A DNA stretch of 45,036 bases, taken from Streptomyces sp. UNOC14_S4 (GTDB taxonomy: Bacteria; Actinomycetota; Actinomycetes; Streptomycetales; Streptomycetaceae). The notes beneath the pieces are model-generated. The model searched no databases. It was given only the letters and a program-made list of their open reading frames with translations, and was not told the origin of the DNA. The stretch covers positions 1-45,036 of the forward strand of contig NZ_JAINFC010000005.1 in assembly GCF_020740835.1 (NCBI RefSeq). Direction: 5' to 3'. Positions 15,511 to 31,228 of this stretch are shown here, in pieces (positions within the stretch are counted from its first letter, which is position 1; every line of letters starts with the position of its first letter). Position numbers and translations under genes: made by a program.

Positions 15511-16655
15511 CACCCCCCGAGACGGACTTCGCCCCTGTGCGGTACTCACCCGGTGTCGCCCCTCCGGAACCGGACTTCGACCGCCACCTGCGGCAGGTCA
15601 TCGACGTCATCGAGAACTTCGAAAAGGGCTCCGTGGAGGGCGAGGGCGAGAACCGCGCCGTCCGCTTCGCCCACGCGAAGGCGTACGGGCTGGTGCGCGG
15701 CACGTTCGAGATCCTCGACGGCGTCCCGCCCGAGTACGCCCAGGGCGTCTACGCAAAGCCCGGGACGCACGACGCGCTGGTCCGCTACTCCAACGGGCTG
15801 TCCCACCTGGGTGCCGACCGGATGCTCGGCAACGTCGTGGGCATGGCCACCAAGGTGTTCGGGGTGGACTCCACCACCACGCTGCCGGACGAGGCCGCGA
15901 GCCGCACCATGGACTTCAACATGATCAACGGGCCCGTCTTCTTCTGCAACACCGCGGCCCACTACACCTTCCTGGCGAAGCTCTTCATCGACCTGCCGAA
16001 GTACCGGCTCGACGGCCGCCGGGGCAACCATCGGATGTACTACGACTGGGTGACCGGGTACGGCACGCTGCCACCGGAGGAGTGGGCCTGGGACGAGCTC
16101 GGCGCGATGCTGCGGCTGGGCGCGCGGGCCCGCTGGCAGAATCTGCTGCTCAGCTCCTTCTTCTCCATGGGCGCGGTGCGCCACGGCGACTACATCGCCA
16201 AGCTGCGCATCCGCCCCACGGACGCGTCGGCGGCCGGTGTGCGGGCCCGTGACCTCGACCCGACGGGCCGGGACGAGGTCTTCCGGCCCGCCCTGGCCGA
16301 CGAGCTCGCCCGGTCGGAGCACGAGTTCGACTTCCAGGTGCAGCTGTGCGCGTCCCTGGAGACCATGCCCGTCGACGACCTCACCGTCGAATGGGAGGAG
16401 CACGAGTCCCCGTTCGTGACGGTGGCCAGGCTTCGTTTCCCCCGCCAGGACATCGGCGGCGAGGACAACCTCGCCGCCGCCGACGCGCTCTCGTTCACGC
16501 CGTGGCGCTGCCCGCCGGAGCACGTACCCATCGGCGCGATCCAGACCGTCCGCAAAGAGGTGTACCGGCACTCGTCCGTCCTGCGCCACGAGCTGAACGG
16601 CCAGCACCGCGCCGAGCCGGCCTCGGCGGCCGACGTGCTTCCCGACCGGTCCTGA
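15507..16655 (+). CDS. catalase-superfamily heme protein
   Basis: This 382-aa protein belongs to the catalase-like group that is shorter than monofunctional catalases (about 480 aa or more). The N-terminal RHLRQVIDVIENFEKGS and RAVRFAHAKAYGLVRG replace the canonical RIPERVVHARG-type region; VRYSNGLSHLG, MDFNMINGPVFFCNT and the C-terminal QTVRKEVYRHSSVLRHELN follow the catalase core. The Tyr in KEVYRHSS is the likely axial heme ligand by position, but this is inferred. Related proteins include minimal catalases and fatty-acid-hydroperoxide-metabolising allene oxide synthase-like enzymes. The GTG start overlaps the peroxidase stop, so both are probably made together; a lipid hydroperoxide or peroxide-driven oxidation is a fair guess. 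Confidence 0.82.
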   Translation: MTPPETDFAPVRYSPGVAPPEPDFDRHLRQVIDVIENFEKGSVEGEGENRAVRFAHAKAYGLVRGTFEILDGVPPEYAQGVYAKPGTHDALVRYSNGLSHLGADRMLGNVVGMATKVFGVDSTTTLPDEAASRTMDFNMINGPVFFCNTAAHYTFLAKLFIDLPKYRLDGRRGNHRMYYDWVTGYGTLPPEEWAWDELGAMLRLGARARWQNLLLSSFFSMGAVRHGDYIAKLRIRPTDASAAGVRARDLDPTGRDEVFRPALADELARSEHEFDFQVQLCASLETMPVDDLTVEWEEHESPFVTVARLRFPRQDIGGEDNLAAADALSFTPWRCPPEHVPIGAIQTVRKEVYRHSSVLRHELNGQHRAEPASAADVLPDRS

Positions 16656-16700
16656 CGTCTCCTGTCGAACCCTGCCGAACCCTATTGAAAGGGAAACCAG

Positions 16701-17258
16701 ATGTACGACTTCGACCCGTCGACCTATCGGCCGATCTCCCCGGACGTACCGGTCGAGGAGATCGCCAAGCACTTCCAGAGCCCCCGCCCGCAGACCGACG
16801 GTGTCGGTCTGCGGGCGGTGAACCGGTCCGAGTTCACCCTGATCGCACCGGTCATCCAGCCGACCGGGCCTGCCATTTTCCTGGAGCGCGCCGAGAAGGC
16901 GTGCATCGAGGCGCCCTACTGGGAGAGCCGCCTCGGGACGGTCCACGACCTGCGTGTCGCGCTCGTCGACGATGGCCGGCAGATCCTGTTCTGTGCGACC
17001 TACAGCGACGAGTTCAAGCCCTACGTCGTGGACGTCATCCGCTTCGCCACCCCCTGGATCGACTACATGTTCACCGACGTCGCCGTCGGCTACCCGGGCC
17101 TGGCCTCCGACGACGCGATCCCCTACATCGCGAAGTACCAGGTGCAGGCCAACGTCTGGTACGGCGGCCCGAACCCGGAGGCCAGCCCCCGGGACATCGC
17201 CAAGAGCCTGACGGTGGCCGCCGCGTTCGAGAACCTGCTGGACGCCGCCCAGGGCTGA
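16701..17258 (+). CDS. unrecognised 185-aa protein, possible ferredoxin-like alpha/beta barrel
   Basis: I do not recognise a named family. The ATG at 16701 follows GAAAGGG, 45 bp after the catalase-like gene and in the same direction. The segment from LRVALVDDGRQILFCATY to VVDVIRF and WIDYMFTDV alternates strand and helix in the way of ferredoxin-like folds, as found in DyP-type proteins and dimeric alpha+beta barrels; VWYGGPNPEASP precedes the last helix. It has no signal peptide and no obvious heme or metal ligand motif. Being the last gene of the peroxidase/catalase-like operon, it may be a partner protein or a degenerate DyP-like ligand-binding domain. The terminator at 17256-17311 begins at its stop codon. 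Confidence 0.75.
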   Translation: MYDFDPSTYRPISPDVPVEEIAKHFQSPRPQTDGVGLRAVNRSEFTLIAPVIQPTGPAIFLERAEKACIEAPYWESRLGTVHDLRVALVDDGRQILFCATYSDEFKPYVVDVIRFATPWIDYMFTDVAVGYPGLASDDAIPYIAKYQVQANVWYGGPNPEASPRDIAKSLTVAAAFENLLDAAQG

Positions 17259-17311
17259 CCACCCGCGTCACCGGGCCCGCCCCCGGGCTCCGGGCGGGCC
17301 CCGGGTGGTCA
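17256..17311. terminator. bidirectional terminator with both stop codons in its stem
   Basis: TGACCACCCG (17256-17265) pairs perfectly with CGGGTGGTCA (17302-17311), and GGGCCCGCCC (17273-17282) with GGGCGGGCCC (17292-17301): 20 base pairs with one 7-nt bulge and a 9-nt loop. The first three bases are the stop codon of the plus-strand gene; the last three are the stop codon of the convergent gene. Confidence 0.85.
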
Positions 17312-18151
17312 CGTGCCGGGGTAGACCCGTTCCAGGGCCTGCCAGCCGCTGTCGCGCTCGCGTTCGGCCGCCTCGGCCCGGCCGCCGCCGCGCAGCCCGA
17401 ACAGCCGCTTGGCGAGCAGGAGGTAGACCACCACCGCGAGGTTGATCGCAAGGGTGCACACCTTCAACGGGCTGACGCGCTCGGTGAGCTCGTAGATCTC
17501 GGGGATCAGCAGCACGCTCGTCGCGACGAAGGTGAGGTACTCGGCCCAGCGCGCCGCGCGCCACAGCCCGACCGCCTCCACGCCCTCCAGCAGGGCGTAC
17601 GCGGCGATCACCACCCCGATCACCCACAGCGTGCGGTCGTGGGCGGCGAACGCCTTCTGCAGATCGCCGAGCAGGCCGTGACCGCGGAGGCCGCTGGGGC
17701 CGCCGACACCGTTCTGGAGGTCGTCCACGATCCGGTAGAAGGGTCCGCGCAGCCGCTCGCGTTCGTGGGCGAAGAGGAGGACGGCGACGGCCAGCACGCC
17801 GAGCACCACGAAGTGCAGCAGCCGGTCGAGGGCGATCAGGCGCAGCACATAGCGGTCCCTCAGCGGTCGCCCGCGCAGCGGGAGTTCGATCTCCGCACGG
17901 TGCTCGGGGACCTCGCGCCCGGGCAGGTCGGGCGGCGGCAGCGGCAGCCAGGCGTCGCAGCGCAGGCAGCGGTGCCAGCGGTGTCCGTCGGGCGTCTCGC
18001 GCACCACGAGCGCGTCGTCGGGCCGGACGCGCGCGGCGTCGGTGCCGACGAGGCGGTGGCCGTGCAGCGCGCACTCCAGCAGTTCGTAGCCGATCCGGCG
18101 CCGCCGCGGCCGTACGCCCGGCGCGGGCACCAGGCCCGGGGTGTCCGCCAC
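17309..18151 (-). CDS. DUF2127-type integral membrane protein
   Basis: This 280-aa protein has four hydrophobic segments: LLHFVVLGVLAVAVLLFA, LWVIGVVIAAYALLEGVEAV, YLTFVATSVLLIPEIYEL and CTLAINLAVVVYLLLAKRL. The pattern, with EIYEL in segment three and the positively charged loop after it, is that of DUF2127 proteins. A cytoplasmic N-terminal part of about 100 residues has CALHGHRLVG and a CLRC pair in WHRCLRCDAWLP, suggesting a small zinc-binding element. I start it at the GTG at 18151 because AAGGAGG lies directly upstream; the frame is open to 18289 but those codons look non-coding. Function unknown. Its promoter region is shared with the divergent hydrolase and includes the iron box. Confidence 0.83.
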   Translation of the reverse strand: MADTPGLVPAPGVRPRRRRIGYELLECALHGHRLVGTDAARVRPDDALVVRETPDGHRWHRCLRCDAWLPLPPPDLPGREVPEHRAEIELPLRGRPLRDRYVLRLIALDRLLHFVVLGVLAVAVLLFAHERERLRGPFYRIVDDLQNGVGGPSGLRGHGLLGDLQKAFAAHDRTLWVIGVVIAAYALLEGVEAVGLWRAARWAEYLTFVATSVLLIPEIYELTERVSPLKVCTLAINLAVVVYLLLAKRLFGLRGGGRAEAAERERDSGWQALERVYPGT

Positions 18152-18311
18152 CGATGCCCTCCTTGATTCCGTCCGTGCTGGATTATGGCGATCCATACCA
18201 CAGGGGCGCACCGTCTTTGACGGCATCGCTGCGGAAAGCGGGGGTTCCCGTGGATTCCCCTTGGCTTGCCTTTGATCTTTCCGGGGCATCCGGGGTCACC
18301 GAGCCCGAGGA

Positions 18312-18335
18312 GGAAGTTAGGCTAACCTAACTTCC
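18312..18335. promoter_or_regulatory. IdeR/DmdR1-type iron box
   Basis: GGAAGTTAGG (18312-18321) and CCTAACTTCC (18326-18335) form a perfect 10-bp dyad around CTAA. Bases 18312-18330 match the actinobacterial iron-box consensus TTAGGTTAGGCTAACCTAA at 16 of 19 positions. It lies 50 bp upstream of the hydrolase start and about 160 bp from the divergent DUF2127 gene. Binding by the iron-loaded repressor would shut off transcription when iron is plentiful. Confidence 0.85.
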
Positions 18336-18384
18336 GAAGGGTCGATGATCAGCGGCGATCGCACGACGGAGAGGCGAGCAGCGC

Positions 18385-19329
18385 ATGTCCTCAACCAGCA
18401 GCACCGAAGGGCACGTTCAGGGACGTACGGAATGGGTGCCGACGCGCGACGGGCGCAGGCTGCACGCCATGGTGCTGCCGGGGCCGGGTGACGACACCGG
18501 CACCGGCACCGGATCGGACATACCGACCGTCGTCTTCGAAGCGGGCGCCGCGGCCACCCGGTCCTCCTGGGCACTGGTGCAGCCCGCCGTGGGCGCCTGG
18601 GCGCGGGCCGTCGTCTACGACCGCGCGGGGCTCGGACTCAGCCCCGCCGACCCGGCCTCCCGCACGATGCGCCGCATGGCGGACGACCTGCAGGATCTGC
18701 TCGACCACTTCGGGCCCGGTCCGTACGTCCTCGTCGGGCACAGCGCGGGCGGCCCGCTGGTACGCCTCGCCGCGGCCGGACGCCCGGACCGGATCCGCGG
18801 CCTGGTGCTGGTGGACCCGACCGACGAGGGCGCGGACCTCCTGTTCAGCCCCCTGTTCCGCCGGGCGGAGCGCGCGGTCCTCGCGGTCAGCCTCCTGCTG
18901 GCCCGGCTGCGGCTGCTCGGCGTCGTCTACGGGTCGCTGGCCAAGCCGCTGCCGGAGGACGCGCGCCGCGACGTCCTGCGGGACGGGCTGACCGTCGGAG
19001 TGGTCAGGACCCAGCGCGCCCAGGCCCGTACCTACCTCGACGAGCTCTCCGCGTTCCGCGGCACCCCGCCCGAACTGGGCGACGTCCCCGTCACGATCAT
19101 CTCCGGCGCGCTCAAGGGCGGCGGCATGAACGAGGCCACCCGCCGGACCGTCAACGCCGCCCATGCCCGTTCCGCGGCCGGGGCCGCGCACGGCAAGCAC
19201 GTGATCGCCCCCCGGTCCGGCCACTACGTGCCCGTCACCGACCCGGATCTCATAGCCGAGGAGATCCGGCTGCTCGCCTTCGAGTCCCCGGGCGGGAACG
19301 GCCGCCCGGGCGGCCCGCCCACGTCCTAG
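18385..19329 (+). CDS. alpha/beta-hydrolase, probably iron-regulated
   Basis: This 314-aa alpha/beta-hydrolase has the nucleophile elbow VGHSAGG (Ser), an oxyanion-side FEAGAAATRSSW strand, YDRAGLGLSPAD in the usual position, VLVDPTDEG after strand 6, and the catalytic His near the end in RSGHYVPVTDP. The pattern suits esterases, lactonases or thioester hydrolases. The ATG at 18385 has GGAGAGG upstream. The promoter carries a near-perfect iron box, so it is likely to be induced in iron starvation. A role in siderophore ester hydrolysis or iron release is possible but no siderophore gene is in the window. It converges with the FAD monooxygenase, their stops overlapping by four bases. Confidence 0.85.
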   Translation: MSSTSSTEGHVQGRTEWVPTRDGRRLHAMVLPGPGDDTGTGTGSDIPTVVFEAGAAATRSSWALVQPAVGAWARAVVYDRAGLGLSPADPASRTMRRMADDLQDLLDHFGPGPYVLVGHSAGGPLVRLAAAGRPDRIRGLVLVDPTDEGADLLFSPLFRRAERAVLAVSLLLARLRLLGVVYGSLAKPLPEDARRDVLRDGLTVGVVRTQRAQARTYLDELSAFRGTPPELGDVPVTIISGALKGGGMNEATRRTVNAAHARSAAGAAHGKHVIAPRSGHYVPVTDPDLIAEEIRLLAFESPGGNGRPGGPPTS

Positions 19330-20540
19330 CCATCGAGCCGGAAGGCGCCGAGCTTCCGGAAGAACTCCGCGTACGCGCTGTCCTCGTGCCTGGCGGGCAG
19401 CTCGCTCACGTCTGTCGTGGCGGCACGCTGTTCCCGCATACGGGCCCGGGAGACCAGGGCGACTTCCTGGCAGGCGGCCACGAAATCGCGCAACCGCCGC
19501 TCGTACGCGGCGAACGCGGTGCTGTGATCACCGGCCGCGTCCCGGAGCTCGCCCGCCAGGATGTACGCGGCGGCCATGGCCATGGTGGTGCCCATACCGG
19601 AGGAGGGCGAGGCACAGTACCCCGCGTCACCGAGGAGCACGACCCGGCCGCGGGACCAGGTGTCCATGTGGATCTGCGCCACCGAGTCGAGGTGGAAGTC
19701 GGGGGCGTCCCACATCTCGTTCAGCAGCCGCGGCAGTTCCCAGCCGGCATCCCGGTACGCGTGGGCCACCAGGCGCTTCTGCTCCATGGTGTCGCGGGGG
19801 AGGAACCGCGCGGGCGGCTGGTCCGACTCGATGCCGACGAAGACACGGGCCTCGGTGTTGTCCCGGACGCTCATCATCATCGCGCCCCAGACGTCGTCGC
19901 CCGGCATGTGGTGGATCACTTCCCAGTGGTCCAAGCCGAGGTGGTTGGGCACCGACCACACGCCCAGGTAGCTGCCCAGGTGCCGCAGGTGGTGCTCCTC
20001 GGGGCCGAAGACGAGCCGCCGTGTGGTGGAGTGGACGCCGTCGGCCCCGACGACCAGGTCGAAGGCGCGTTCCGTGCCACTGTCGAACACCACCCGTACC
20101 TCGTTGTCGTCCTGCTCGAGTGTGGCGATGGAGTCGTCGAAGAGGTACTCGATCCCGCTGCCGCCCGCGGTGAACAGAATCCGGGCCAGGTCGTCGCGGA
20201 GAATCTCGACGTCGGGGCTGTCGATCATTCCTCCGCTGGCGGTGTGCTCGGTGGTCCTGTACAGCTCCTTGCCGTCGCCGTCGACGAACGACATCCCGCG
20301 CAGGGCGGTGCTCTGACGGCGCAGCTCGTCCAGCACGCCCATGCGCTCGGCCACCTCCAGCGCCGGGCCCCGGACGTCGATCGCCTGCCCGCCCGGCCGC
20401 AGGCCGGCGGCCCGCTCCACCACCGTGACCTTGAATCCGTACCGGTCCAGCCAGTAGGCGAGGGTGGGGCCGCCGATGCTGGCACCGGAGATCAGGACGC
20501 TGATGTCCTTCGGGCTCTTCGCTTGCGTGAATGCGGACAC
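19326..20540 (-). CDS. FAD-dependent monooxygenase (PHBH-fold)
   Basis: This 404-aa flavoprotein has the N-terminal dinucleotide-binding motif VLISGASIGGPTLAYWL, the middle VVGADGVHSTTR (DG motif) and the C-terminal GRVVLLGDAGYCASPSSGMG (GD motif): class A flavoprotein hydroxylases. These use NAD(P)H and oxygen to hydroxylate aromatic or other activated substrates; relatives include TetX-like drug-inactivating enzymes. I start it at the GTG at 20540, with GAGGAG six bases upstream; the frame extends to 20606 without homology. It faces away from the M20 amidohydrolase across a 255-bp region with a strong dyad and repeated CCGACAG sequences, which may control both genes. Confidence 0.88.
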   Translation of the reverse strand: MSAFTQAKSPKDISVLISGASIGGPTLAYWLDRYGFKVTVVERAAGLRPGGQAIDVRGPALEVAERMGVLDELRRQSTALRGMSFVDGDGKELYRTTEHTASGGMIDSPDVEILRDDLARILFTAGGSGIEYLFDDSIATLEQDDNEVRVVFDSGTERAFDLVVGADGVHSTTRRLVFGPEEHHLRHLGSYLGVWSVPNHLGLDHWEVIHHMPGDDVWGAMMMSVRDNTEARVFVGIESDQPPARFLPRDTMEQKRLVAHAYRDAGWELPRLLNEMWDAPDFHLDSVAQIHMDTWSRGRVVLLGDAGYCASPSSGMGTTMAMAAAYILAGELRDAAGDHSTAFAAYERRLRDFVAACQEVALVSRARMREQRAATTDVSELPARHEDSAYAEFFRKLGAFRLDG

Positions 20541-20604
20541 TGCGGGCTCCTCAACGGTCTGAACGGTCTGTAGGACTTCCGTACGTCCAAGACTGTCCGA
20601 CCGC

Positions 20605-20698
20605 ACCGACAGAGCACTGACAAAGCACCAGCAGAACGCCGACAGCGCCCGGCGGGCGACCGACAGCCCCGGGTCCGGCGGCGCGGGGCTGTCGGTCG
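20605..20698. promoter_or_regulatory. 15-bp perfect dyad and repeated CCGACAG motifs in a divergent promoter region
   Basis: CGACCGACAGCCCCG (20657-20671) and CGGGGCTGTCGGTCG (20684-20698) form a perfect 15-bp inverted repeat with a 12-bp spacer. CCGACAG occurs twice more in direct orientation (20606-20612 and 20639-20645). The region lies between two divergent starts, so it is not a terminator; a multi-site operator is the simplest reading. The rest of the 255-bp gap shows no gene. Confidence 0.65.
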
Positions 20699-20795
20699 GA
20701 CCGGAACCGGCCCGGCCGACTTACGCTTTCCTCTGCCCGACGTCGCCGCCCGGACGAGACCATTGCGGCACACGTCAACGGAAAGGGGTCGTCCC

Positions 20796-22073
20796 GTGCG
20801 TACCGTGCGTACCGTCACCGAGCCCCCGGAACCCGAACTGCTGCGAGAGGCCCGGGAACTGCTGCCGGATGTCGTGGCCCTGCGGCGGCGGATCCATCGC
20901 GAGCCGGAAGTGGGCCTCCGCCTTCCCCGTACCCAGCGTGCGGTGCTCGGGGCGATCGACGGCCTGGGCATGACGGTGACCGTCGGCAGAGCGCTGAGCT
21001 CCGTCGCGGCCGTCCTGGAAGGGGCCCGTCCCGGGCGGACCCTGCTGCTGCGCGCCGACATGGACGCGCTGCCCCAGCAGGAGAACAGCGGGCTCCCCTT
21101 CGCTTCCGGCGCTCCCGGCGTCATGCACGCGTGCGGCCACGACATGCACACCGCCATGCTCGTCGGCGCGGCCCGACTGCTCGCGGCCCGCAGGCAGCGG
21201 CTGGCCGGGCGCGTGGTGTTCATGTTCCAGCCCGGGGAGGAACTCGGCGGCGGCGCCTCCCGGATGATCGAGGAAGGCGTCCTGTCGGGACCGGACGGGG
21301 CGCCGCCCGTGGCGGGTGCCTTCGCCCTCCACGTCAACACGCGCCACGAGCTGGGCACGGTCCATCTGCGCGCGGGCACGCAGTACGCCGCCGCCGACAT
21401 GCTGCGGATCACCGTGCGCGGCAGAACCGGCCATGCCGCCGCACCGCACCGGCTGCTCGACCCCGTCCCGGTGGCCTGCGAGATCGTGCAGGCCCTGCAG
21501 ACCATGATCACGCGGACCGTCGATGTCGTCGACCCCGCCGTCCTGACGATCACCACGCTCACGGCGGGGCAGGCGTTCAACGTGATTCCGGAGACCGCCG
21601 AACTGACCGGCACCTACCGCACTTTCTCGGAGACCACCCGGCGCGCCGTGCGCGAGGGCATCGCCCGCGTGGCCCACGGTGTCGCCGCCGCCCACGGTGC
21701 GACGGCGGAGGCCGAACTCCCGGAGGGCTATCCCCCGGCCCGCAACGACCCGGACTTCACCGCCCTCGTGTGCCGCGCCGTCTCCGGCGTCCTCGGCCCG
21801 TCCGCCGTCCACGAGCAGCCCGCCCCCAACATGGGGGGCGAGGACTTCGCGTACGTCCTGCAGCGCGTCCCCGGAGCGATCGCGTCCCTGGGGGCGTGTC
21901 CGGCGGGCCGGACGCCCGGGACGGTTCCCGACAACCACTCCGACCGTGTGATCCACGACGAGGAGGCGATGGCCGCGGGGATCGCGGTGCACTGCGCGGT
22001 GGCCGAGACCTTCCTCGGCGGAGGGGGTCCCGAGCCCACGGCGCCGTCGCCTCAGGACTCCGTGAATCCGTAG
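20796..22073 (+). CDS. M20-family amidohydrolase
   Basis: This 425-aa protein has the metal-binding pattern of M20D amidohydrolases (hippurate/IAA-amino acid/N-acyl-amino acid hydrolases): HREPEVGL at the start, RADMDALP, the metal-binding HACGHDMHTAMLVGAA, FQPGEE with the general-base Glu, and NMGGEDFAYV near the end. The central lid domain begins about residue 200 (LRITVRGRTGHAAAPHR). It should cleave an N-acyl amino acid in the cytoplasm; the substrate is unknown. I chose the GTG at 20796 with GAAAGGGG upstream over a TTG at 20763. The C-terminus overlaps the convergent MMPL remnant by 22 bases. It shares an upstream region with the divergent FAD monooxygenase. Confidence 0.88.
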   Translation: MRTVRTVTEPPEPELLREARELLPDVVALRRRIHREPEVGLRLPRTQRAVLGAIDGLGMTVTVGRALSSVAAVLEGARPGRTLLLRADMDALPQQENSGLPFASGAPGVMHACGHDMHTAMLVGAARLLAARRQRLAGRVVFMFQPGEELGGGASRMIEEGVLSGPDGAPPVAGAFALHVNTRHELGTVHLRAGTQYAAADMLRITVRGRTGHAAAPHRLLDPVPVACEIVQALQTMITRTVDVVDPAVLTITTLTAGQAFNVIPETAELTGTYRTFSETTRRAVREGIARVAHGVAAAHGATAEAELPEGYPPARNDPDFTALVCRAVSGVLGPSAVHEQPAPNMGGEDFAYVLQRVPGAIASLGACPAGRTPGTVPDNHSDRVIHDEEAMAAGIAVHCAVAETFLGGGGPEPTAPSPQDSVNP

Positions 22074-22560
22074 CGGGTGTGCAGGCGCGCCAGCGGTGCG
22101 GGGGCCCACCAGTTGGCGCGGCCGGCCAGGTGCATGAGGGCGGGGGCCAGCAGGATGCGGATCACGGTCACGTCGAGCAGGATGGTGACGACCATGCCGA
22201 CGCCGACGGTCTTCAGCGGGACGATCGGTGAGGACGCCTGGCCGAGGAAGACCACGACGATCAGGGCCGCGGCCGAGGTGATCAGGGGTGCGGTGCGGCG
22301 GACCGCGGCCTCGATGGCGGCGGAGTTGTCGGCCGAGGCGGCGTACTCCTCGCGGAACGCGGACAGCAGGAACACCTCGTAGTCCATGGAGAGCCCGAAG
22401 GCGATGGCGATCACCAGGATCGGCATCATGAGGTCGGTGGTGCCCACCGGGGTGAACGCGCCGACCAGGCCCTGCAGATGCCCGTCCTGGAAGATGAAGA
22501 CCATCGCGCCGAGGACCGCGGTCATGCTCAGCGCGGTCAGCAGGAGCGCCTTGAGCGGCC
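22052..22560 (-). pseudogene. MMPL/RND transporter C-terminal remnant
   Basis: Only the last roughly 170 residues of a normally 700-aa or longer MMPL exporter remain: RPLKALLLTALSMTAVLGAM, the conserved MPILVIAIAFGLSMDYEVFLLSAFREEY, a LITSAAALIVVVFLG segment, and ILLDVTVIRILLAPALM with the usual LGRANWW-like end. In full proteins this is the second membrane domain. The open frame continues upstream to 22741, but beyond about 22560 it is just the antisense of the PKS remnant, with no MMPL similarity and no promoter or start. The protein was therefore cut at about 22560, exactly where the PKS remnant begins on the other strand. Confidence 0.83.
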
Positions 22561-24887
22561 GGGCACTGTGGCCGCGGCTCCTGGACGGTCTCGCCGCGGC
22601 GTACAGGGCCGGGGCCGCCGTCGACTGGGCCGGGGTGCACGACGACGGCCGTCCGTCCCGGCTCGCGCTGCCCACGTACCCCTTCCAACGCACCCGGCAC
22701 GCCCCGCCGGTGCCCCGAGCCGACAGCTTCCGCGCCGCCACGCGGGGACGGGACGGGTCGGCTGTCCGGCCGTCGGCTGTCCGGTCGTCGCCTGCCGGGA
22801 CCGCCCGGCCGACCGCGCTCAGGCCCGTGCCGTCCCCGCTGCCCAGCCGTCAGTTCGAGACCGTCCTCAGCCGGCGGCTGCTGCCCGAGGCGGCCGACAC
22901 GGGTAGTGTCCTGCACCTGGGCCACTACCACGCCATGCTCACGGACGCGGCGCGCGACCTGTTCGGGGCGCCGTCGTACGAGCTGCGTGGTGTGGCGTTC
23001 CCCCAGGCCCTGAGGCTTGCCGAGGCCGGGGAAGAGCCGTACGGTCCAGGTCGTCGTCGGCGACGAGGGCGACGGGGCCGGCGGCTGGCGGCCGTTCTCC
23101 GTGCACAGTCTCGTCGAGGGGCGGAGCCGCTGGCAGCGGCACGTCCACGGGGACATCCAGCCCCGGCCCGCCGGTGCCCGCCCCAAACTGGACGACGACG
23201 CGCGCCGGGCGCTGCGCTCGCTGCTTGCCCGTCCACACCGACAGCACCGGTTTCTACCGCGACCTGTGCGGGCGCGGTGTGGTGCGGGGCGACTCCGTCA
23301 TGTGTGTCGAGGAGGCGTGGTCGGGCGACGGAGAGGTCCTGGCCCGGCTGCGCCCTGTCGGCGAGGGCGGCCCGGGGTGCTGGACGCCTGTGCCCAGTTG
23401 TACGTGCTCGCCGCGGGTGAACGGCTCCCGGCCGACGCGTTGTTCATCACCTCGTCGCTGGGCCGGTTCTCTCTCGACAACTCCGTCGGCGACGGCCCGC
23501 TGTGGGCGCATTTCACCCTGACCGGCCAGGTGGACGAAGGCCATCTCGCCGGTGGTTACCGGCTCTTCGGCGAGGACGGGCGCCTGCTCGCCGAGTGCGA
23601 GGACGCCGTGGTCCGCCTCATCGCCTTCGGACCCGCTCACCCACGTGACGTCTCCCCGGCCGACGGCGGGCACCCTGGCCACGGCCGGGCCTCGCCGTCC
23701 CGACCTGGTGCGCGGAATCCGCGATGCCCGGCCGGAGCTGCGGCCGGGCCTCCTCGCCGCGTTCCTGACGGACGTGCTGACCGGCCTCGTCACCGCGGAG
23801 GCGGAGGCGATCCGCGAGCACTCGATCACCGACCTCGGCCTGAACTCGCTCGCCGCTCTGGAACTGCGCCGGACGCTGTCGGCAGATCTCGGCACGGACG
23901 TACTGCTGGACGTTCTCGTAGGCGGCCCCACCGTGGCCGAACTCTCCGCTGTCCTGGCCGGATCGCCCGCCTTCCGCACGACCGGCGAGGTCGCCCCCGG
24001 GCCCGGGATGCCGACTGCGGAGTCTGCGTCCCCGGAGCCCGCCGACGAACGGCACTCCGCTCCGGTCTCCCGCGACCCGGCCCACTGGCTGCGGCATCAC
24101 CGGCTCACCGCGACCGCGCGCGTGCGGGTGTTCTGCCTGCCGTACGGCGGGCGGAGGCGCCTCCGTCTTCCGCGCCTGGGCGGAGGCACTGCCCGTCGAC
24201 GTCGATGTCTGCCCGGTGCAGTTGCCGGGCCGGGAGAACCGCTGGCGTGAACGGCCGCTGGAGGACTGCGAGGAAGCCGTCGGGCTCCTCGCCGAGGCGC
24301 TGGCCCCGTACACCGACCGGCCCTTCGCGTTCTTCGGGCACAGCATGGGCGCCCTGCTCGCCCACCGGCCCGCCCACGAGTTCGGCACGGTTCGCGGCGC
24401 CCCGTTGCGGCACCTCTTCGTCGCCGCCTGCACCTCGCCCTCGCTCGGCCCCAACCCGCTGGCGGCCGGAGTGGTGGCGACCTACCGTGCCCTCGGCCTT
24501 GCCGGTCTGCCGTCCGCCGCGGAACTGCTCGACGTGTTCGACGGACAGCCGGAGCGCCTGCGGCACGCGATGCGGGAGCACCTCGGCGAGGGGGCCGGCG
24601 AGCAACTGCTCGGTGTCATGGACCCGGTCGGCTGCGCGGACCTGCGCATCGTCCACGGCTACGCCCGGCCGACGGCGGAGGCACCGCTCGCCGTGCCGGT
24701 CACCGCGCTGCACGGCCGCCGGGACCCTCTCGTCACCGAGGAAGGCATGAGCGCCTGGCAGGACCTCACGGCGGGAACCTTCCGCCTGGAGGTGTTCGAC
24801 GGCGACCACTACTTCTGCCACCCCGACCAGGCGCGGGCCGCTCTGCTCGCCCTCCTCCGCACCCGGCTGGCAGGCGGCCTCCGCTAA
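22560..24887 (+). pseudogene. type I PKS remnant: AT tail, DH-like, ACP, thioesterase; multiple frameshifts
   Basis: The remnant begins abruptly near 22560 with the end of an acyltransferase domain (LWPRLLDGLAAAYRAGAAV, LALPTYPFQRTRH). A DH-like double-hotdog region follows: LHLGHYHAMLTDAA and SYELRGVAFPQALRL in one frame; VQVVVGDEG and RPFSVHSLVEG in the next after about 23040; FYRDLCGRGVV after about 23225; VLDACAQLYVLAAGERL after about 23375. From about 23650 another frame reads an ACP domain with DLGLNSLAALELRRTL (phosphopantetheine Ser) and the thioesterase beginning VRVFCLPYGG; a last shift near 24150 leads into the TE body. KS and KR domains are absent. At least five frame changes in 2.3 kb and the missing 5-prime part mean it is dead as a PKS. 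Confidence 0.83.
24216..24887 (+). CDS. thioesterase domain segment of the PKS remnant
   Basis: This is the only long intact frame in the PKS remnant: 223 codons reading a type-II/RifR-like alpha/beta thioesterase: QLPGRENRW, the nucleophile elbow GHSMGALL, the Asp region HGRRDPLVT and the catalytic His in GDHYFCHPDQ. The family's first strand (VRVFCLPYGG, near 24120-24150) lies in another frame just upstream, so the domain lacks about 30 N-terminal residues if translated from the ATG at 24216, which has no clear ribosome binding site. The Ala-His-Arg sequence after the Ser is otherwise normal. It may be expressed by chance, but I consider it part of the pseudogene. Confidence 0.5.
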   Translation: MQLPGRENRWRERPLEDCEEAVGLLAEALAPYTDRPFAFFGHSMGALLAHRPAHEFGTVRGAPLRHLFVAACTSPSLGPNPLAAGVVATYRALGLAGLPSAAELLDVFDGQPERLRHAMREHLGEGAGEQLLGVMDPVGCADLRIVHGYARPTAEAPLAVPVTALHGRRDPLVTEEGMSAWQDLTAGTFRLEVFDGDHYFCHPDQARAALLALLRTRLAGGLR

Positions 24888-25738
24888 GGGCGGCGATCGG
24901 AGGGTTCCAGGATGTCGGCGGCCGTACCCGTGCCCAGGAACCGGCGGATCGCGGCCGCCGACTCCGCCGGCCTCCGCAGATGGACCCAGTGGTCGGAATC
25001 CAGTGTGACCAGGGTGGTGCCGGGACGCCGGGAGGCCATCTCGTGGGCCTGCGCAGTGGGCAGGACGGCACTGGCGGTGCCGTGCAGGAGCAGCGCGGGG
25101 CAGTCGGAGGCCAGCCATCGGTGCCAGTGGTCGCCGAGGAGGCGGGTGTCCGAGTCGACCGTGTCCGCGGGATGGCAGCCGAGCCGCCAGCCGTCGTGGT
25201 ACGGCCGCAGTCCGTTCCGCACCAGGGGTGCCAGGGGGCCGCAGGCGGCGAGGAGTTCCTCGCGGGTGGGGGCGGTGTACGGCAGATCGAGCAGGAAGGA
25301 CAACGGGACGGGGTCCACGACGGGCAGATACGCGGGCCCGTCGACATTGATCAGCGCGCTCACGGCACCGGGCCGGTCCGCGGCCAGGTGGTAGGCGTTG
25401 ACGGCGCCGAGGGAGTGCCCGAGGACCGGCAGGGGGCGGTGGTCGAGGCCCAGGTGGGCGAGGAGGTGGCGGAGGTCGTCGAGATATCCGTCCCGGTCGT
25501 ACCGCTCCGCCCGGTCGGAGTCGCCGTGCCCCCGCTGATCGGGCGCGACCACCCGCCACCCGTCGGCCCTCAAAGCCCCGGACAGTCCCGCGAACTCGGC
25601 GCCTTCCCCGAGGTGCCCGTGCAACGCGAGCAGAGGCCGGCCGTTGTCCGGCCCGAAGTCGAGCCAGGAGAGGCGTCGGCCGTCGGGGGTGGTGAGGTGG
25701 GCGCGTACGGGACGGTCCTGGGCAGGGCTGGTCGGCAT
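24884..25738 (-). CDS. alpha/beta-hydrolase
   Basis: This 284-aa alpha/beta-hydrolase has LALHGHLGEGAEF at the oxyanion position, VAPDQRGHGDSDRAERY, the nucleophile elbow LGHSLGAVNAYHL and the catalytic His in LDSDHWVHLRRP. The oxyanion motif reads HGHLG instead of the usual HGFPG-type sequence. Lipases, epoxide hydrolases and proline iminopeptidase-like enzymes share the layout; the Ser nucleophile argues against dehalogenases and epoxide hydrolases. The ATG at 25738 has only GAGG very close upstream, so the start is probable, not certain. Its stop overlaps that of the PKS remnant on the other strand, meaning it was not disturbed by the deletion that truncated the PKS. Confidence 0.85.
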   Translation of the reverse strand: MPTSPAQDRPVRAHLTTPDGRRLSWLDFGPDNGRPLLALHGHLGEGAEFAGLSGALRADGWRVVAPDQRGHGDSDRAERYDRDGYLDDLRHLLAHLGLDHRPLPVLGHSLGAVNAYHLAADRPGAVSALINVDGPAYLPVVDPVPLSFLLDLPYTAPTREELLAACGPLAPLVRNGLRPYHDGWRLGCHPADTVDSDTRLLGDHWHRWLASDCPALLLHGTASAVLPTAQAHEMASRRPGTTLVTLDSDHWVHLRRPAESAAAIRRFLGTGTAADILEPSDRRP

Positions 25739-25918
25739 GGCCTCATGCTAAGCAATTCCCTTGCCTCGGCCCGTATTCCCTCGTCCCTCTTGCTCGGCGG
25801 TGAAGGCGAACGGGGCCGCGCACAGGGGACCGCTCCCCCTTTCCTTTCCTGGGCCTCCTCCGATTGTTTCGTCTTCGAAAATCCCGCATCCGCCTGTCGT
25901 CCGCTTCCGCGCCCCCGT

Positions 25919-25948
25919 TTGAACACTGCGACGGCTGGAAGTTATACC
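25919..25948 (+). promoter_or_regulatory. candidate vegetative promoter for htpG
   Basis: TTGAAC (25919-25924) and TATACC (25943-25948) are separated by 18 bp and would start transcription near 25955, giving a leader of about 210 nt before the htpG start codon. TTGAAC is close to TTGACA; TATACC fits the loose Streptomyces -10 consensus. Confidence 0.45.
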
Positions 25949-26063
25949 TTCACTGCTGGGGAGCGCGACGACCACGAGGAGAGACCGACGACCGAGCCGA
26001 ACACCCGTGGCCGGTGCGGGCCTGACGCACCGTGTGCGGCCGCGCCCGCCATCGTCCGCCGAC

Positions 26064-26101
26064 CGGTCTGCCCTCGGCACACCGATGCCGAGGGCAGACC
26101 G
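26064..26101 (+). promoter_or_regulatory. 16-bp perfect hairpin in the htpG leader
   Basis: CGGTCTGCCCTCGGCA (26064-26079) pairs with TGCCGAGGGCAGACCG (26086-26101), loop CACCGA. It ends 62 nt before the start codon. No plus-strand gene ends upstream, so it is not a terminator of a preceding gene; it may be an attenuator, a leader-stabilising hairpin or an operator. Confidence 0.65.
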
Positions 26102-26163
26102 CCCGGCCCCGGCGCTTTATCCATGCATCACCTTTCACTTCTGATTCTGAAGGAGACACCTCC

Positions 26164-28092
26164 GTGGCCAGCAGTGTCGAAACGCTGGAATTCCAGGCCG
26201 AGACCCGCCAGTTGCTCCAGCTGGTCATCCACTCGATCTACTCGAACAAGGACATTTTCCTCCGCGAGCTGATATCCAACGCCTCCGACGCTCTGGACAA
26301 GCTCCGCCTGGAGTCGCTGATCGACTCCGATCTCGCGGCGGACGCCTCCGACCCGCACATCACCCTCGAGGCCGACAAGGAGGCCCGCACCCTGACGGTG
26401 CGGGACAACGGCATCGGCATGACCCGGGAGGAGGTGGTGGAGCTGATCGGGACCATCGCCAAGTCCGGGACCGGGCGCCTGCTGGAGAAGATCAAGGAGG
26501 CCAAGGACGCCGCCGCGGCGCAGAACCTGATCGGACAGTTCGGCGTCGGCTTCTACTCGGCGTTCATGGTCGCCGACAAGGTCACCCTGCGCACCCGCCG
26601 GGCCGGCACCGACGAGGGCACGCTGTGGGAGTCCGACGGCGAGGGGACGTACGACATCCAGGCCGTGGACGGCCTGCCGGCCGGCACCTCGGTCACGCTC
26701 CACCTCAGGCCCGCCGACACCGAGGACGGGCTGGCCGACTACCTGGCCGAGTGGAAGATCCGCCAGATCGTGAAGCAGTACTCGGACTTCATCCGCTGGC
26801 CGATCCGGATGGCCACCGAGCGCACCCCCGCCGCCGACGGCACCGACGGCGCGCCCGTCGAGGGCACGGACACCCTCAACTCGATGAAGGCGCTGTGGGC
26901 CCGGCCGCGCAGCGAGGTGTCCGAGGCCGAGTACAGCGAGTTCTACCAGCAGATCAGCCACGACCGGCTCGCCCCGGCCGAGACCATCCACATGCGCGCC
27001 GAGGGCAACTTCGAGTACGAGGCGCTGCTGTTCATCCCCGCGCAGGCGCCGTTCGACCTGTTCTCCCAGGAGACCAGGCGCGGTGTGCAGCTGTACGTCA
27101 AGCGCGTGTTCATCATGGACGACTGCGAAGCGCTGATGCCGAACTACCTGCGCTTCGTCAAGGGCGTCGTGGACGCCCACGACCTGTCGCTGAACATCTC
27201 CCGCGAGATCCTGCAGCACGACCGCCAGATCCGCGGCGTGCGCCGCCATCTGGTGAAGAAGGTCCTCCGCGCGGTCAAGGACATGCAGGCCAAGAACGCC
27301 GAGGGCTACACGAGGCTGTGGGGCCAGTTCGGCACGGTCCTCAAGGAAGGCCTTCTGGAGGATCCCGACAACGCCGAGACGCTGCTGGAGCTGGTGTCGG
27401 CCGCGTCCACGCACGACGCCGAGAAGACGACCACCCTGCGCGAGTACGTCGGGCGCATGAAGGACGGCCAGGACGCGATCTACTACCTGACCGGCGAGAC
27501 CCGTGCGACGGTGGAGAACTCGCCGCACATGGAGGCCTTCGCCGCCAAGGGGTACGAGGTCCTGATCCTCACCGACCCGGTCGACGAGGTCTGGGCCGAG
27601 CGCATCCCGGCCTTCGACGGCCACCGGTTCCAGTCCATCGCCAAGGGCCAGGTCGACCTCGACGAGCCGGCCGACGGCGACGAGCAGGACGAGGCCGGGA
27701 AGGCCAGGCGCGAGCAGGACTTCGGCGCCCTGCTGCCGTGGCTGACGACGGCTCTGTCCGACCGTGTGAAGGAGGTCCGGCTGTCGTCGCGGCTGACGAC
27801 GTCGGCGGCCTGCCTCGTCGGTGACGCCCACGACATGACGCCGACTCTGGAGAAGATGTACCGGGCGATGGGACAGCAGATCCCCTCGGTCAAGCGCATC
27901 CTCGAACTCAACCCCGCGCACCCGCTCGTCACCGCCCTGCGCTCGGCGCACGAGGCGAACGCCGACGACCCGGCGCTCCCGGAGATCGCCGAGCTGGTGT
28001 ACGGCAGCGCGCTGCTCGCCGAGGGCGGCGACCTTCCCGACCCGGCCCGCTTCAGCCGGCTGCTCATGGACCGCCTGAGCTCCACCCTGTAA
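26164..28092 (+). CDS. htpG: chaperone HtpG (Hsp90)
   Basis: This 642-aa protein is the bacterial Hsp90. The N-terminal ATPase (about 1-225) shows ELISNASDALDK with the catalytic Glu and Asn, DNGIGM, IAKSGT and GQFGVGFYSAFMVADKV. The middle domain (about 235-510) includes LNSMKALWARP, FEYEALLFIPAQAPFDLF, RVFIMDDCEALMPNYLRF and LSLNISREILQ; the C-terminal dimerisation domain runs from about 525 to the end, with KRILELNPAHPLV. The length is normal. The GTG at 26164 follows AAGGAGA, and VETLEFQAETRQLLQL is the usual N-terminus. It folds and stabilises client proteins in the cytoplasm, including some large antibiotic synthetases. It sits alone, with its own leader hairpin and a good terminator downstream. 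Confidence 0.97.
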   Translation: MASSVETLEFQAETRQLLQLVIHSIYSNKDIFLRELISNASDALDKLRLESLIDSDLAADASDPHITLEADKEARTLTVRDNGIGMTREEVVELIGTIAKSGTGRLLEKIKEAKDAAAAQNLIGQFGVGFYSAFMVADKVTLRTRRAGTDEGTLWESDGEGTYDIQAVDGLPAGTSVTLHLRPADTEDGLADYLAEWKIRQIVKQYSDFIRWPIRMATERTPAADGTDGAPVEGTDTLNSMKALWARPRSEVSEAEYSEFYQQISHDRLAPAETIHMRAEGNFEYEALLFIPAQAPFDLFSQETRRGVQLYVKRVFIMDDCEALMPNYLRFVKGVVDAHDLSLNISREILQHDRQIRGVRRHLVKKVLRAVKDMQAKNAEGYTRLWGQFGTVLKEGLLEDPDNAETLLELVSAASTHDAEKTTTLREYVGRMKDGQDAIYYLTGETRATVENSPHMEAFAAKGYEVLILTDPVDEVWAERIPAFDGHRFQSIAKGQVDLDEPADGDEQDEAGKARREQDFGALLPWLTTALSDRVKEVRLSSRLTTSAACLVGDAHDMTPTLEKMYRAMGQQIPSVKRILELNPAHPLVTALRSAHEANADDPALPEIAELVYGSALLAEGGDLPDPARFSRLLMDRLSSTL

Positions 28093-28108
28093 CCGGAAAG
28101 GCGCGAGT

Positions 28109-28142
28109 GGCACCGGGATGCGGCCTGCCCCATCCCGGTGCC
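28109..28142 (+). terminator. htpG terminator
   Basis: GGCACCGGGATG (28109-28120) and CATCCCGGTGCC (28131-28142) form a perfect 12-bp stem with a 10-nt loop, 17 bp after the htpG stop codon. No U-tract follows. Confidence 0.8.
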
Positions 28143-28167
28143 GGGGATGCACTGGCCGGAGGCCGTG

Positions 28168-28200
28168 GCCGAGCCGCCGGTGACCGGCCAGCGGCTCGGC
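28168..28200 (-). terminator. terminator of the convergent hydrolase
   Basis: GCCGAGCCGC (28168-28177) pairs with GCGGCTCGGC (28191-28200), a perfect 10-bp stem with a 13-nt loop, 12 bp beyond the stop codon of the minus-strand hydrolase. Together with the htpG terminator it insulates the two genes. Confidence 0.65.
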
Positions 28201-28211
28201 GGCTCGGCCGC

Positions 28212-29093
28212 TCAGCGGCTCAGGAGGTCGCGGAGCTCGGCCGCGACCTGGGCGGGGGCCTCTTCCGCCATGAAGTGGCCGCAGGTCACGGTGGTGTGGC
28301 GGAGGTCAGGTGCCCAGGCGCGCCAGAGGGCGGCGGCGTCGAAGCCGAGGGCGGCGCCCCAGTCCTGCTGGAGGACGGTGACCGGCATCCGCAGCAGGCT
28401 GCCGGCGTCCCGGTCGGCCTGATCGTGTGCCACGTCGACGGTGGCGGAGGCACGGTAGTCGGCCACGATGGAGGGCACCGCGTCACGGCAGGCATCCAGG
28501 TAGGCGGCACGGATACCGGCCGGGATCGCCTCGGGATCCCGGGCCCACGCGTCGAGGAAGTGGCCGAAGAAGGCATCCGCGGTGGCGGCGATCATCTGCT
28601 CGGGCAGACCCGGGGGCTGGGCCATCAGATAGAGGTGGAAGCCGACGGCGGCGCCGGTGCCATGCATCACCTGCCACATGTCCAGAGTCGGCAGGGTGTC
28701 CAGACAGGCCAGGTGGCTGATCGCCCGCGGATGGTCGAGACCGGCGCGGAAGGCGACCAGGGAGCCCCGGTCGTGGCCCGCCAGCGCGAACCGCTCGTGG
28801 CCGAGGGCACGGGCCAGGCCGACGACGTCGGCGGCCATGGTCCGCTTGGCGTACGCGGTACCGTGCGTGCCCTCCGCGGGCTTGTCGCTCGCGCCGTAGC
28901 CGCGCAGGTCGGGGCAGATGACAGTGTGGTCGGCCGCGAGGTCGGCGGCGACGTGCCGCCACATCAGATGGGTCTGCGGGAAGCCGTGCAGCAGCACGAT
29001 CGGGCTGCCCGAGCCGCCGACGGCCACATTGAGGGCGACGCCGTCGGCGACGGGGACGCGCCGGTAGTCGAAGCCGGGAATGGTCGGTGCCAT
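28212..29093 (-). CDS. alpha/beta-hydrolase of the haloacetate dehalogenase/epoxide hydrolase group
   Basis: This 293-aa hydrolase has an Asp nucleophile: LAGHDRGSLVAFR, which marks haloalkanoate dehalogenases and epoxide hydrolases, where the substrate forms an ester with Asp. HGFPQTHLMWRHVA supplies the oxyanion region, CPDLRGYGASDKP follows strand 4, and CGHFMAEEAP carries the catalytic His. The cap-domain segment with MIAATADAFFGHFLDAW is as in fluoroacetate-dehalogenase-like proteins. I chose the ATG at 29093 behind GGAGAG; upstream codons to 29174 are not homologous. A soluble cytoplasmic enzyme of this type could handle halogenated acids or epoxides. It is divergent from the SARP gene, 107 bp away; this gap shows no clear operator. 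Confidence 0.87.
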   Translation of the reverse strand: MAPTIPGFDYRRVPVADGVALNVAVGGSGSPIVLLHGFPQTHLMWRHVAADLAADHTVICPDLRGYGASDKPAEGTHGTAYAKRTMAADVVGLARALGHERFALAGHDRGSLVAFRAGLDHPRAISHLACLDTLPTLDMWQVMHGTGAAVGFHLYLMAQPPGLPEQMIAATADAFFGHFLDAWARDPEAIPAGIRAAYLDACRDAVPSIVADYRASATVDVAHDQADRDAGSLLRMPVTVLQQDWGAALGFDAAALWRAWAPDLRHTTVTCGHFMAEEAPAQVAAELRDLLSR

Positions 29094-29200
29094 GGTGAGC
29101 CGCTCTCCTGCGTTCGGGGTGACGCCCGCCGGCCGGCGGGGACACCGCCAAGGCTGCCGCCCGCCGATCAGCATCCGGTCAGCACGTACCGTGGAGGCCG

Positions 29201-31228
29201 ATGGAGATCCACGCGGGTGAGGGAATGGAACAGGTCACGTTCGGGGTGCTCGGGCCGGTGGTGGCCTGGGGCAGCGGTGGCGGCGCGCTGGCGTTGAAGG
29301 GCCCGCGGCACCGGGCCGTGCTCGCACGGCTGATCGTGGCCCGCCGCCGTGTGGTGCCCCTCCCCCGCCTGATCGAGGACCTGTGGGACGAGCCCCCGCG
29401 CGGCGCGACCGGCGCCGTGCGGACCTTCGTCGCCGACCTGCGCCGCGCCCTGGAACCGGACCGGCCGCCCCGCGCACCGGCGAGGCTGCTGGTCACGGAG
29501 GGGCCGGGGTACGCGCTGCACGCGTCACCGGACGCCGTGGACGCCTGGCGCCTCGAAGCGGCGGTCGGCTCCGCCGCCGCGCTGCCGCCCGCCCGGGCGC
29601 TGGAACGGCTGCGGGAGGCGCTGGAGCTCTGGCGCGGCCCGGCCTACGCCGACTTCGCCGACGAGGACTGGGCCCGCGGTGAGCGTTCCCGGCTGGCCGA
29701 ACTGCGGCTGCAGGCGGTGGAGCAACTGGCGGAGACCCGGCTGGCGCTGGGCGCGGCCGACGCGGCGGTACCCGACCTGGACGCCCACCTGGCCGAGCAC
29801 CCCTGGCGCGAGGACGCCTGGCGGCTGCTGGCGCTGGCCCTGTACCGCACCGGCCGCCAGCAGGAGGCGCTCGCCGTACTGCGCCGGGCCCGCACCATGC
29901 TGGCCGACCGGCTCGGCCTCGATCCGGGCCCGCGGCTGCGTCGGCTGGAGGCGGACATCCTCACCCACGACCCGCGGCTCGACCCGCGGTCCGCCCCCGC
30001 GGCCACGGCGGCCCGGGTGTGGGCGGAGGCGGCCGAGGCCTACGACCGCACCGTCGCCGCCGGTGCCCGGGCCCGGCTGGAGTCGACGGTCGGGCTGCTC
30101 CGGAACCTCGCGGTGACCGGCGGCGGCGGTCTCCAGGCGGCGCGGGAACACCGGACGGCGGCGATCACCGCGGCGGAGGAGTTCGGCGACCCGGGCCTGA
30201 CTGCCCGGGTGATCGGCGCCTACGACGTCCCCGCGATCTGGACCCGCTGCGACGACCCGCGGCAGGCGCAGCGGATCGTGGCCGCCGCCGAGCGCACCCT
30301 GGCCGTCCTGCCGGGCGCGGCGTCGTACGACGCGGCGCGGTGCCGCCTGCTGGCCACCGTCGCGCTGGAAACGCGCGGCACCCGCTCGCCGCGCGGACCG
30401 CAGGCCGCGCGCCACGCCGAGGAGATCGCCCGCCGCCTGGACGATCCGGCGCTGCTCGCGTTCGCCCTCAACGGGACGTTCATGCAGTCGTGCACCCGCG
30501 CGGGCCTGGCGGCGCGCCGCGACGCCATCGGCGAGGAGCTGGTCGCCCTGGCCGCGGGGCACGGACTGGTGACCTTCGAGGTGCTCGGTCACCTGATCCG
30601 GCTCCAGGCCCGCTGCGCTCTCGGCGACTTCCCGGCGGCGGACGAGCACGCGGCCGCGGCGGAGTGCCTGGCCGCGCGCCACGAACTGCCGCTGGTGGGC
30701 GTGTTCACCCAGTGGTACGGCGCCCTGCGGCTGGCCGCCGCGGGGCGGTTCGCGCGGGCCGAGGCCGCCTATCGGGCCGCTGCCACGGGGCTGGAGGGCT
30801 CGGGCATGCCCGGCCTGCGGGACGGTCTGCTGCCCCTGGCACTGCTGTGCCTGCGTCTTACGGAAGGCGGCCTTACGGAAAGGGGTCTCACGAAAGGCGG
30901 ACCGTCCGCGACGGAGCATGTCGATCCGGGTGCGGACTGGGGTCCGTACCGTCCCTGGGCCGAGCCCTTCGTCCTGCTGCGCGGCGGTCGTCGCGCCGAC
31001 GCCCAGGAGGCCCTGCGTGCCCTGCCGGAGCCGCCCGCGGACCTGCTGTACGAGGCACTGTGCTGCCTGCAGGCCGCGGCCGCCCTGGCGCTCGGCGACC
31101 GCCCCGCGCTGCGGCAGGCCCAGGCCCGCCTTCGGCCCGCCGCGGGCCAGCTCGCGGGCGCCGGCAGCGGCCTCGTCACGCTCGGCCCGGTGGACGACTG
31201 GCTGGAGGCGGCCGACGCGATGAGGTGA
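29201..31228 (+). CDS. SARP-type transcriptional activator with TPR-like C-terminal region
   Basis: This 675-aa regulator begins with an OmpR-like winged-helix DNA-binding domain (about 10-100: VTFGVLGPVVAW, RHRAVLARLIVARRRVVPL, AVRTFVADLRRAL, VTEGPGYALH) followed by a bacterial transcriptional activation domain (about 105-255: WRLEAAVGSA, EALELWRGPAYADF, HPWREDAWRLLALALYRTGRQQEAL). This is the AfsR/DnrI/RedD architecture. The remaining 400 residues are Ala-rich helical repeats of TPR type; I see no Walker A/NB-ARC motif, so it is intermediate between small SARPs and AfsR. The ATG at 29201 follows GTGGAGG; a second possible start is 29225. It likely activates a pathway gene set; the haloacid-dehalogenase-like divergent gene is one candidate. 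A 15-bp tandem repeat lies at 30857-30901. Confidence 0.88.
   Translation: MEIHAGEGMEQVTFGVLGPVVAWGSGGGALALKGPRHRAVLARLIVARRRVVPLPRLIEDLWDEPPRGATGAVRTFVADLRRALEPDRPPRAPARLLVTEGPGYALHASPDAVDAWRLEAAVGSAAALPPARALERLREALELWRGPAYADFADEDWARGERSRLAELRLQAVEQLAETRLALGAADAAVPDLDAHLAEHPWREDAWRLLALALYRTGRQQEALAVLRRARTMLADRLGLDPGPRLRRLEADILTHDPRLDPRSAPAATAARVWAEAAEAYDRTVAAGARARLESTVGLLRNLAVTGGGGLQAAREHRTAAITAAEEFGDPGLTARVIGAYDVPAIWTRCDDPRQAQRIVAAAERTLAVLPGAASYDAARCRLLATVALETRGTRSPRGPQAARHAEEIARRLDDPALLAFALNGTFMQSCTRAGLAARRDAIGEELVALAAGHGLVTFEVLGHLIRLQARCALGDFPAADEHAAAAECLAARHELPLVGVFTQWYGALRLAAAGRFARAEAAYRAAATGLEGSGMPGLRDGLLPLALLCLRLTEGGLTERGLTKGGPSATEHVDPGADWGPYRPWAEPFVLLRGGRRADAQEALRALPEPPADLLYEALCCLQAAAALALGDRPALRQAQARLRPAAGQLAGAGSGLVTLGPVDDWLEAADAMR
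30857..30901 (+). repeat. three in-frame 15-bp repeats in the SARP gene
   Basis: Three degenerate copies of CTTACGGAAGGCGGC (30857-30871, 30872-30886, 30887-30901) encode L-T-E-G-G, L-T-E-R-G, L-T-K-G-G. The insertion lies in the C-terminal helical region and would form a flexible Gly-rich loop. Confidence 0.8.

Follow-up and report, generated by a model that had tools for sequence, protein, structure and literature searches.

A divergent gene cluster consisting of an RND-type MMPL transporter gene on one side and a fatty-acyl-AMP ligase (FAAL) gene followed by two polyketide synthase genes (PKS1 and PKS2) on the other has very probably been removed by a single interstitial deletion in the genomic segment described here, leaving a scar whose PKS tail has decayed by frameshifts. 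The window, meaning the whole 45,036-nucleotide stretch that was analysed, corresponds to contig C522 of a draft genome of Streptomyces sp. UNOC14_S4 (8.23 Mb, 1076 contigs, 99.92% complete). The remnant extends from the MMPL stop codon to the end of a thioesterase and is bordered by an M20 peptidase gene identified with Pfam on the left (20763-22073, plus strand), which lies outside the cluster, and by an alpha/beta hydrolase gene on the right (24884-25738, minus strand). The GC content per kilobase varies between 66 and 78% across the window, and three Pfam scans of its further open reading frames returned matches in 9 of 10, 9 of 10 and 7 of 8 frames.

The two gene tails and their junction

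The left part of the remnant (22052-22559, minus strand) is the tail of an MMPL transporter gene, recognized by Pfam and by relatives' proteins and comprising the last ~167 codons and the stop. A sequence-only reading of the same DNA had placed MMPL C-terminal sequence leftward from about 22560, and this is borne out by a Pfam MMPL match (E 2.8e-18, profile positions 193-310 of 333) and by 87-89% amino acid identity to two relatives: 89% to the end of the MMPL of genome G403, where the open frame has 803 aa, and 87% to that of Streptomyces sp. ISL-87, aligning to residues 622-788 of 789. The mechanical open reading frame (22052-22741) continues past the junction into a stretch antisense to the PKS gene (22560-22741, minus strand). 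A simple hydropathy scan gives 4 peaks for the truncated MMPL versus 11 for the intact protein, so transport by the truncated form is not expected.

To the right lies a headless PKS2 tail (22560-24887, plus strand) that contains a linker, a dehydratase (DH) match (PS-DH, PF14765, 23365-23616, plus strand, E 3.5e-6), an acyl carrier protein (ACP) match (PP-binding, PF00550, 23798-23953, plus strand, E 2.5e-7) and a thioesterase (TE) open reading frame (24216-24887, plus strand; PF00975, E 1.3e-17, profile positions 34-212 of 226). The rightward PKS sequence of the earlier reading is thus present; the end of an acyltransferase (AT) domain that it placed at the junction is, by comparison with relatives, the linker behind an AT that was already degenerate in them. 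Pfam detects no AT in ISL-87 PKS2 at E <= 0.001, and the AT-sized stretch of this protein gives a weak match to PKS structures such as CurL. The GHSVG-type AT motif holds the catalytic serine; the GHSVG site of CurL reads GGGVG in ISL-87 PKS2 and GRGPG in G403. The N-terminal AT of PKS1 keeps GHSLG.

Alignment of the PKS tail to ISL-87 and G403 reveals five frame-changing differences between ~23.02 and ~24.15 kb, and the tail falls into six frame pieces with 48-75% amino acid identity to ISL-87 PKS2. Searches with tblastn return six frame segments with the ISL-87 PKS2 query and four with that of G403, because the program runs across the region that separates two opposing shifts. Besides the PKS tail, the frame comparison with relatives covered the M20 peptidase gene (two relatives) and an Hsp90 gene at 26032-28092 on the plus strand (one relative), each of which aligns in a single frame. 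Judged against intact orthologues, whose frame it no longer follows, the PKS remnant is a pseudogene. Window-specific changes in the tail number 87/89/143 at codon positions 1, 2 and 3 (third-position share 45%), next to 45/58/91 for ISL-87 (47%) and 39/45/73 for G403 (46%), in a three-sequence, unrooted comparison that gives no clear age. In the MMPL tail, where counts are few, the corresponding values are 10/6/16 (50%), 6/4/18 (64%) and 3/2/13 (72%). By this measure, changes in the PKS tail are still distributed as in a coding sequence.

The two arms meet at a junction with inferred microhomology at 22553-22559, delimited by ungapped comparison of both arms with ISL-87 and G403. In blastn alignments, the last position with MMPL homology is 22558 (ISL-87) or 22559 (G403) and the first with PKS homology is 22547 (ISL-87) or 22555 (G403), in keeping with the earlier description of two headless genes lying back to back. 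For each gene, homology thus stops no more than a few bases from 22559. On the PKS side, ungapped comparison shows ISL-87 matching from 22553 (GAGCGGCCG) and G403 from 22555 (GCGG, a short mismatch, then further matches). The arms overlap by GAGCGG within ISL-87 and by GCGG when the right arm is taken from G403, i.e. about 4-6 bp as read from relatives with a DNA divergence of 12-13% (MMPL) and 27-30% (PKS). Among 200,000 random breakpoint pairs in the ISL-87 MMPL and PKS2 genes, 2.8% share at least 4 bp, 0.33% at least 6 bp and 0.12% at least 7 bp. Base-by-base comparison of the arms revealed no long repeat common to both at the break. The small number of shared bases at the breakpoints suggests end joining as the likely joining route. 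In a study of induced breaks in S. ambofaciens, half of the end-joining scars are reported to carry microhomologies of 1-6 nt (PMC5869714), a range into which the window deletion fits. Those scars came from induced breaks and were read in sequenced clones, with added nucleotides in 40% (PMC5869714), whereas the window scar is natural and is reconstructed from relatives. No second strain with the arms joined in this way appeared among the matches listed for 199 relatives, with up to two candidates scored per genome.

The intact cluster in ISL-87 and G403

Close relatives of the two tails are rare. In a scan of relatives' contigs with the MMPL tail (best 80 of 591), ISL-87 ranked top at 87% and the other 79 reached at most 58%. 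Across 392 genus genomes, the tail was found at E <= 1e-60 in three, namely the window's own, G403 (89%) and G014 (77%), and the thioesterase at E <= 1e-45 in eight including the window's own, with G403 as the best other (71%); thioesterase identity in ISL-87 is 75%.

The sequence-only reading had proposed looking for relatives in which intact MMPL and PKS genes flank a longer cluster, and ISL-87 provides one on a single gap-free stretch. The cluster is whole on a 43,819-bp contig (NZ_JAGGOY010000093.1, 16638-33063; no N in the cluster) and consists of an MMPL gene (16638-19007, minus strand, 789 aa), a FAAL-like AMP-ligase gene (within 18839-20872, plus strand), PKS1 (20972-28318, plus strand, 2448 aa) and PKS2 (28315-33063, plus strand, 1582 aa). 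The window aligns to 16654-17144 of this contig and then, in two pieces, from 30696 to 33056. Both arms have the order and orientation of the window tails, from MMPL stop to thioesterase end. From one copy of GAGCGG to the other, 13,563 bp of ISL-87 are missing from the window. Relative to the ISL-87 cluster, the window thus lacks ~13.56 kb, has a frameshifted PKS tail and differs in its outer flanks. With two tails in place of the MMPL-FAAL-PKS1-PKS2 set, it is a relic of such a cluster, and the collinear intact counterpart in ISL-87 agrees with the earlier suggestion that a PKS cluster with an exporter was once present.

The full gene order comes from one genome, ISL-87; G403, in which the locus is split by gaps, supports the gene set only. 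Its contig C57 carries MMPL, FAAL and residues 1-1620 of PKS1, with a scaffold gap where PKS1 stops, and contig C11 (5.9 kb) carries residues 501-1581 of PKS2. For the cluster proteins that are missing from the window, ISL-87 and G403 share 73-75% identity. The 20-kb stretch of C57 that was analysed contains 101 N, one of them in the MMPL region and the rest marking the scaffold gap. An apparent break of G403 PKS1 by fusion to a helix-turn-helix domain (C57 4865-10231) was rejected, as the run of X in the translation corresponds to this gap. A phage-type integrase gene adjoins PKS1 on C57.

More distant loci share parts of this arrangement. In G047, G105, G262 and G432, a thioesterase 46-49% identical to that of the window lies within a long PKS frame, and a FAAL-like gene is found ~12 kb from it, divergent from the PKS and not in line with it as in ISL-87. 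PKS2 of G047 has the order KS-DH-ACP-TE (KS, ketosynthase). Among the matches listed for G050, which has short contigs, and G353, none showed a FAAL-like gene near the thioesterase. Neither the 39-kb stretch of G047 nor that of G105 matches the MMPL tail, and the G047 stretch gives no match to the full-length MMPL either; the exporter may therefore be confined to the branch of ISL-87, G403 and the window. The PKS1-PKS2 pair may have relatives in SCO6826-SCO6827 of S. coelicolor. These genes are named in passing in published work.

Origin of the scar and competing explanations

Under the deletion model, a compact cluster with a divergent MMPL exporter gene and a FAAL-PKS1-PKS2 series would have existed at this site or at the place of origin of the segment. 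One deletion of ~13.56 kb in ISL-87 coordinates would have brought MMPL codon ~622 and PKS2 codon ~799 together, with the loss of FAAL and PKS1 in full, roughly four fifths of MMPL and half of PKS2, together with the stretch between the divergent starts, which presumably held the promoters. The likely route would be end joining after a double-strand break. The leftover PKS tail would then have collected the frameshifts observed in it, and nothing from the cluster would be expected to work today. A single deletion between two divergent genes had been the core of the sequence-only reading; it gains support from the collinearity with ISL-87, the sharp break and the missing interior.

A short-read misjoin of two real but separate loci, in a strain that keeps the full cluster, is a very unlikely alternative. 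The draft assembly does have 1076 contigs, and a PKS motif ~100 bp to the right of the junction (window 22658-22700) has a copy in the genome at 86% over 43 bp. The few bases shared by the arms would nonetheless be a short overlap for a misjoin caused by k-mers, frameshifts interrupt the PKS tail, and the arms are collinear parts of one ISL-87 cluster. A misjoin would also have left orthologues of the missing genes on other contigs. When ISL-87 DNA from 20001-30800 was compared with the window's own genome (40 of 789 candidates scored), PKS-type matches longer than 300 bp had 64-69% identity and those of higher identity were short, e.g. 35-44 bp at 91-97%. With MMPL DNA (40 of 368 candidates scored), the remnant itself was recovered at 87%, the lost 5′ part gave 65% over 389 bp and 78% over 54 bp, and further pieces straddled the break or lay beyond it. 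Protein queries gave paralogues of 27-45% identity for FAAL (88 of 88 scored), PKS paralogues of at most 49% for PKS1 among the matches listed (150 of 234 scored) and, for the full-length MMPL, the remnant at 86% and paralogues of at most 41% (21 of 21 scored). No orthologue-level match to the deleted interior was thus found by these DNA and protein searches, with partly scored candidate lists, in an assembly rated nearly complete. Misassembly is therefore considered unlikely on this comparison, the remaining escape being that all missing genes fell into assembly gaps.

Separate arrival or trimming of the two tails, e.g. through mosaic transfer of cluster ends, followed by a secondary joining, is extremely improbable. 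The neighbourhood does appear rearranged, as the outer flanks of the remnant resemble neither ISL-87 nor G403; yet the order, orientation and outer limits of the tails equal those of the intact cluster, and a single event suffices. Retention of the thioesterase frame (24216-24887) as a free-standing, type II-like enzyme, which would be compatible with the deletion, is likewise improbable to a high degree. The thioesterase segment is uninterrupted, keeps GHSMG and shows high GC at third positions; against a retained function, the last frameshift removes the N-terminal strands (profile positions 1-33), other frameshifts lie upstream, and the promoter side of the cluster has been deleted.

When 28 window genes were compared with the stretches from ISL-87, G403 and G014 (E <= 1e-25), a KS was the only one to match in the cluster regions, its target being ISL-87 PKS2, and the window Hsp90 was matched on another G403 contig. 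Downstream of PKS2, ISL-87 and G403 have an amidohydrolase and an FAD enzyme, versus the alpha/beta hydrolase in the window. Given these unlike outer flanks, the cluster or its neighbourhood has apparently moved, and the deletion may have taken place elsewhere. Among six genomes compared, G060 has relatives of the M20 and Hsp90 genes side by side in reversed order, and the other five have only one of the two. No empty site was present in the stretches with M20 or Hsp90 relatives from these six genomes, or among the matches listed for the 392 genus genomes (mostly Hsp90, with one or two candidates scored per genome). The Hsp90 copies of the genus, among the matches listed, form a group at 82-89% and a larger one at 72-75%, which suggests two lineages.

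Several other parts of the window merit mention. A DyP_N match (14170-14529, plus strand) lies in one frame of the region 12919-16655 with no other part of a DyP peroxidase, and the long open frame at 14100-16655 has no Pfam family at E <= 0.1; region 12919-16655 on the plus strand could hold a broken gene or an unusual protein. This partial match in one frame with none in another means that a frame error may occur elsewhere in the window, outside the PKS tail, e.g. at ~14.1-16.7 kb. A single 1129-aa frame at 1598-4987 (plus strand) combines ATP-grasp and PLP-dependent decarboxylase matches and adjoins a decarboxylase-type PLP gene at 94-1377. To the right of the scar, 28212-44977 contains genes for a SARP-type regulator, an FAD monooxygenase, two glycosyltransferases, an O-methyltransferase, an SDR and a P450, possibly a separate biosynthetic cluster.

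The lost pathway and its significance

In ISL-87, PKS1 comprises an N-terminal AT, two KS, three PP-binding matches and a ketoreductase (KR), and PKS2 comprises KS, DH, ACP and TE. With its altered PKS2 motif, the system departs from a canonical modular PKS with an in-line AT in each module. These domains suggest a lipopolyketide pathway that is primed by FAAL and has a dedicated exporter. FAAL would activate a fatty acid, PKS1 and PKS2 would extend it with the only AT whose motif is intact, the N-terminal one of PKS1, the thioesterase would release the product and the MMPL pump would export it. Production and export of a compound derived from a fatty acid is the probable role of the lost genes. 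The ISL-87 cluster (16638-33063) is a candidate single-AT, FAAL-primed lipopolyketide line with a dedicated exporter.

In mycobacteria, FadD32, Pks13 and MmpL3 serve mycolic acids as acyl-AMP ligase, PKS and RND-type lipid exporter, respectively, and the ISL-87 cluster has the same division of labour. Pks13 and the ISL-87 PKSs have different module contents. Among NCBIfam models, FadD32 ranks fourth for FAAL, Pks13 second for PKS1 and MmpL3 first for MMPL, with scores of 411 of 975, 984 of 2100 and 322 of 1400 bits, so all three ISL-87 proteins fall far below the equivalog cut-offs of the mycolate families. It is a tentative idea that the lost pathway represents an apparently undescribed Streptomyces type, in which a FAAL-primed PKS with one N-terminal AT would serve modules whose own AT is missing or degenerate and a dedicated MMPL would export the product, as a counterpart of the FadD32-Pks13-MmpL3 logic for an unknown lipid.

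The open-access literature, with subscription papers mostly outside its scope, yielded no description of the product or the MMPL export partner of an ISL-87-type cluster. Open-access reports combining FAAL, MMPL and Streptomyces concern mycobacteria or mycolic acids, as far as their titles and the beginnings of their abstracts indicate. Those retrieved for cluster remnants concern other subjects, and none was found there on single-AT lines or ISL-87.

As an event, the scar is of an ordinary kind, that of gene loss, and the parent cluster, which is rare and apparently unstudied, is the more interesting object. The scar offers a clean example of how a secondary-metabolite cluster is lost, with at least half of both border genes and everything between them removed in one event and the leftover decaying. 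By itself it leaves general understanding unchanged; it points to a rare cluster that is intact in ISL-87 and present in pieces in G403.
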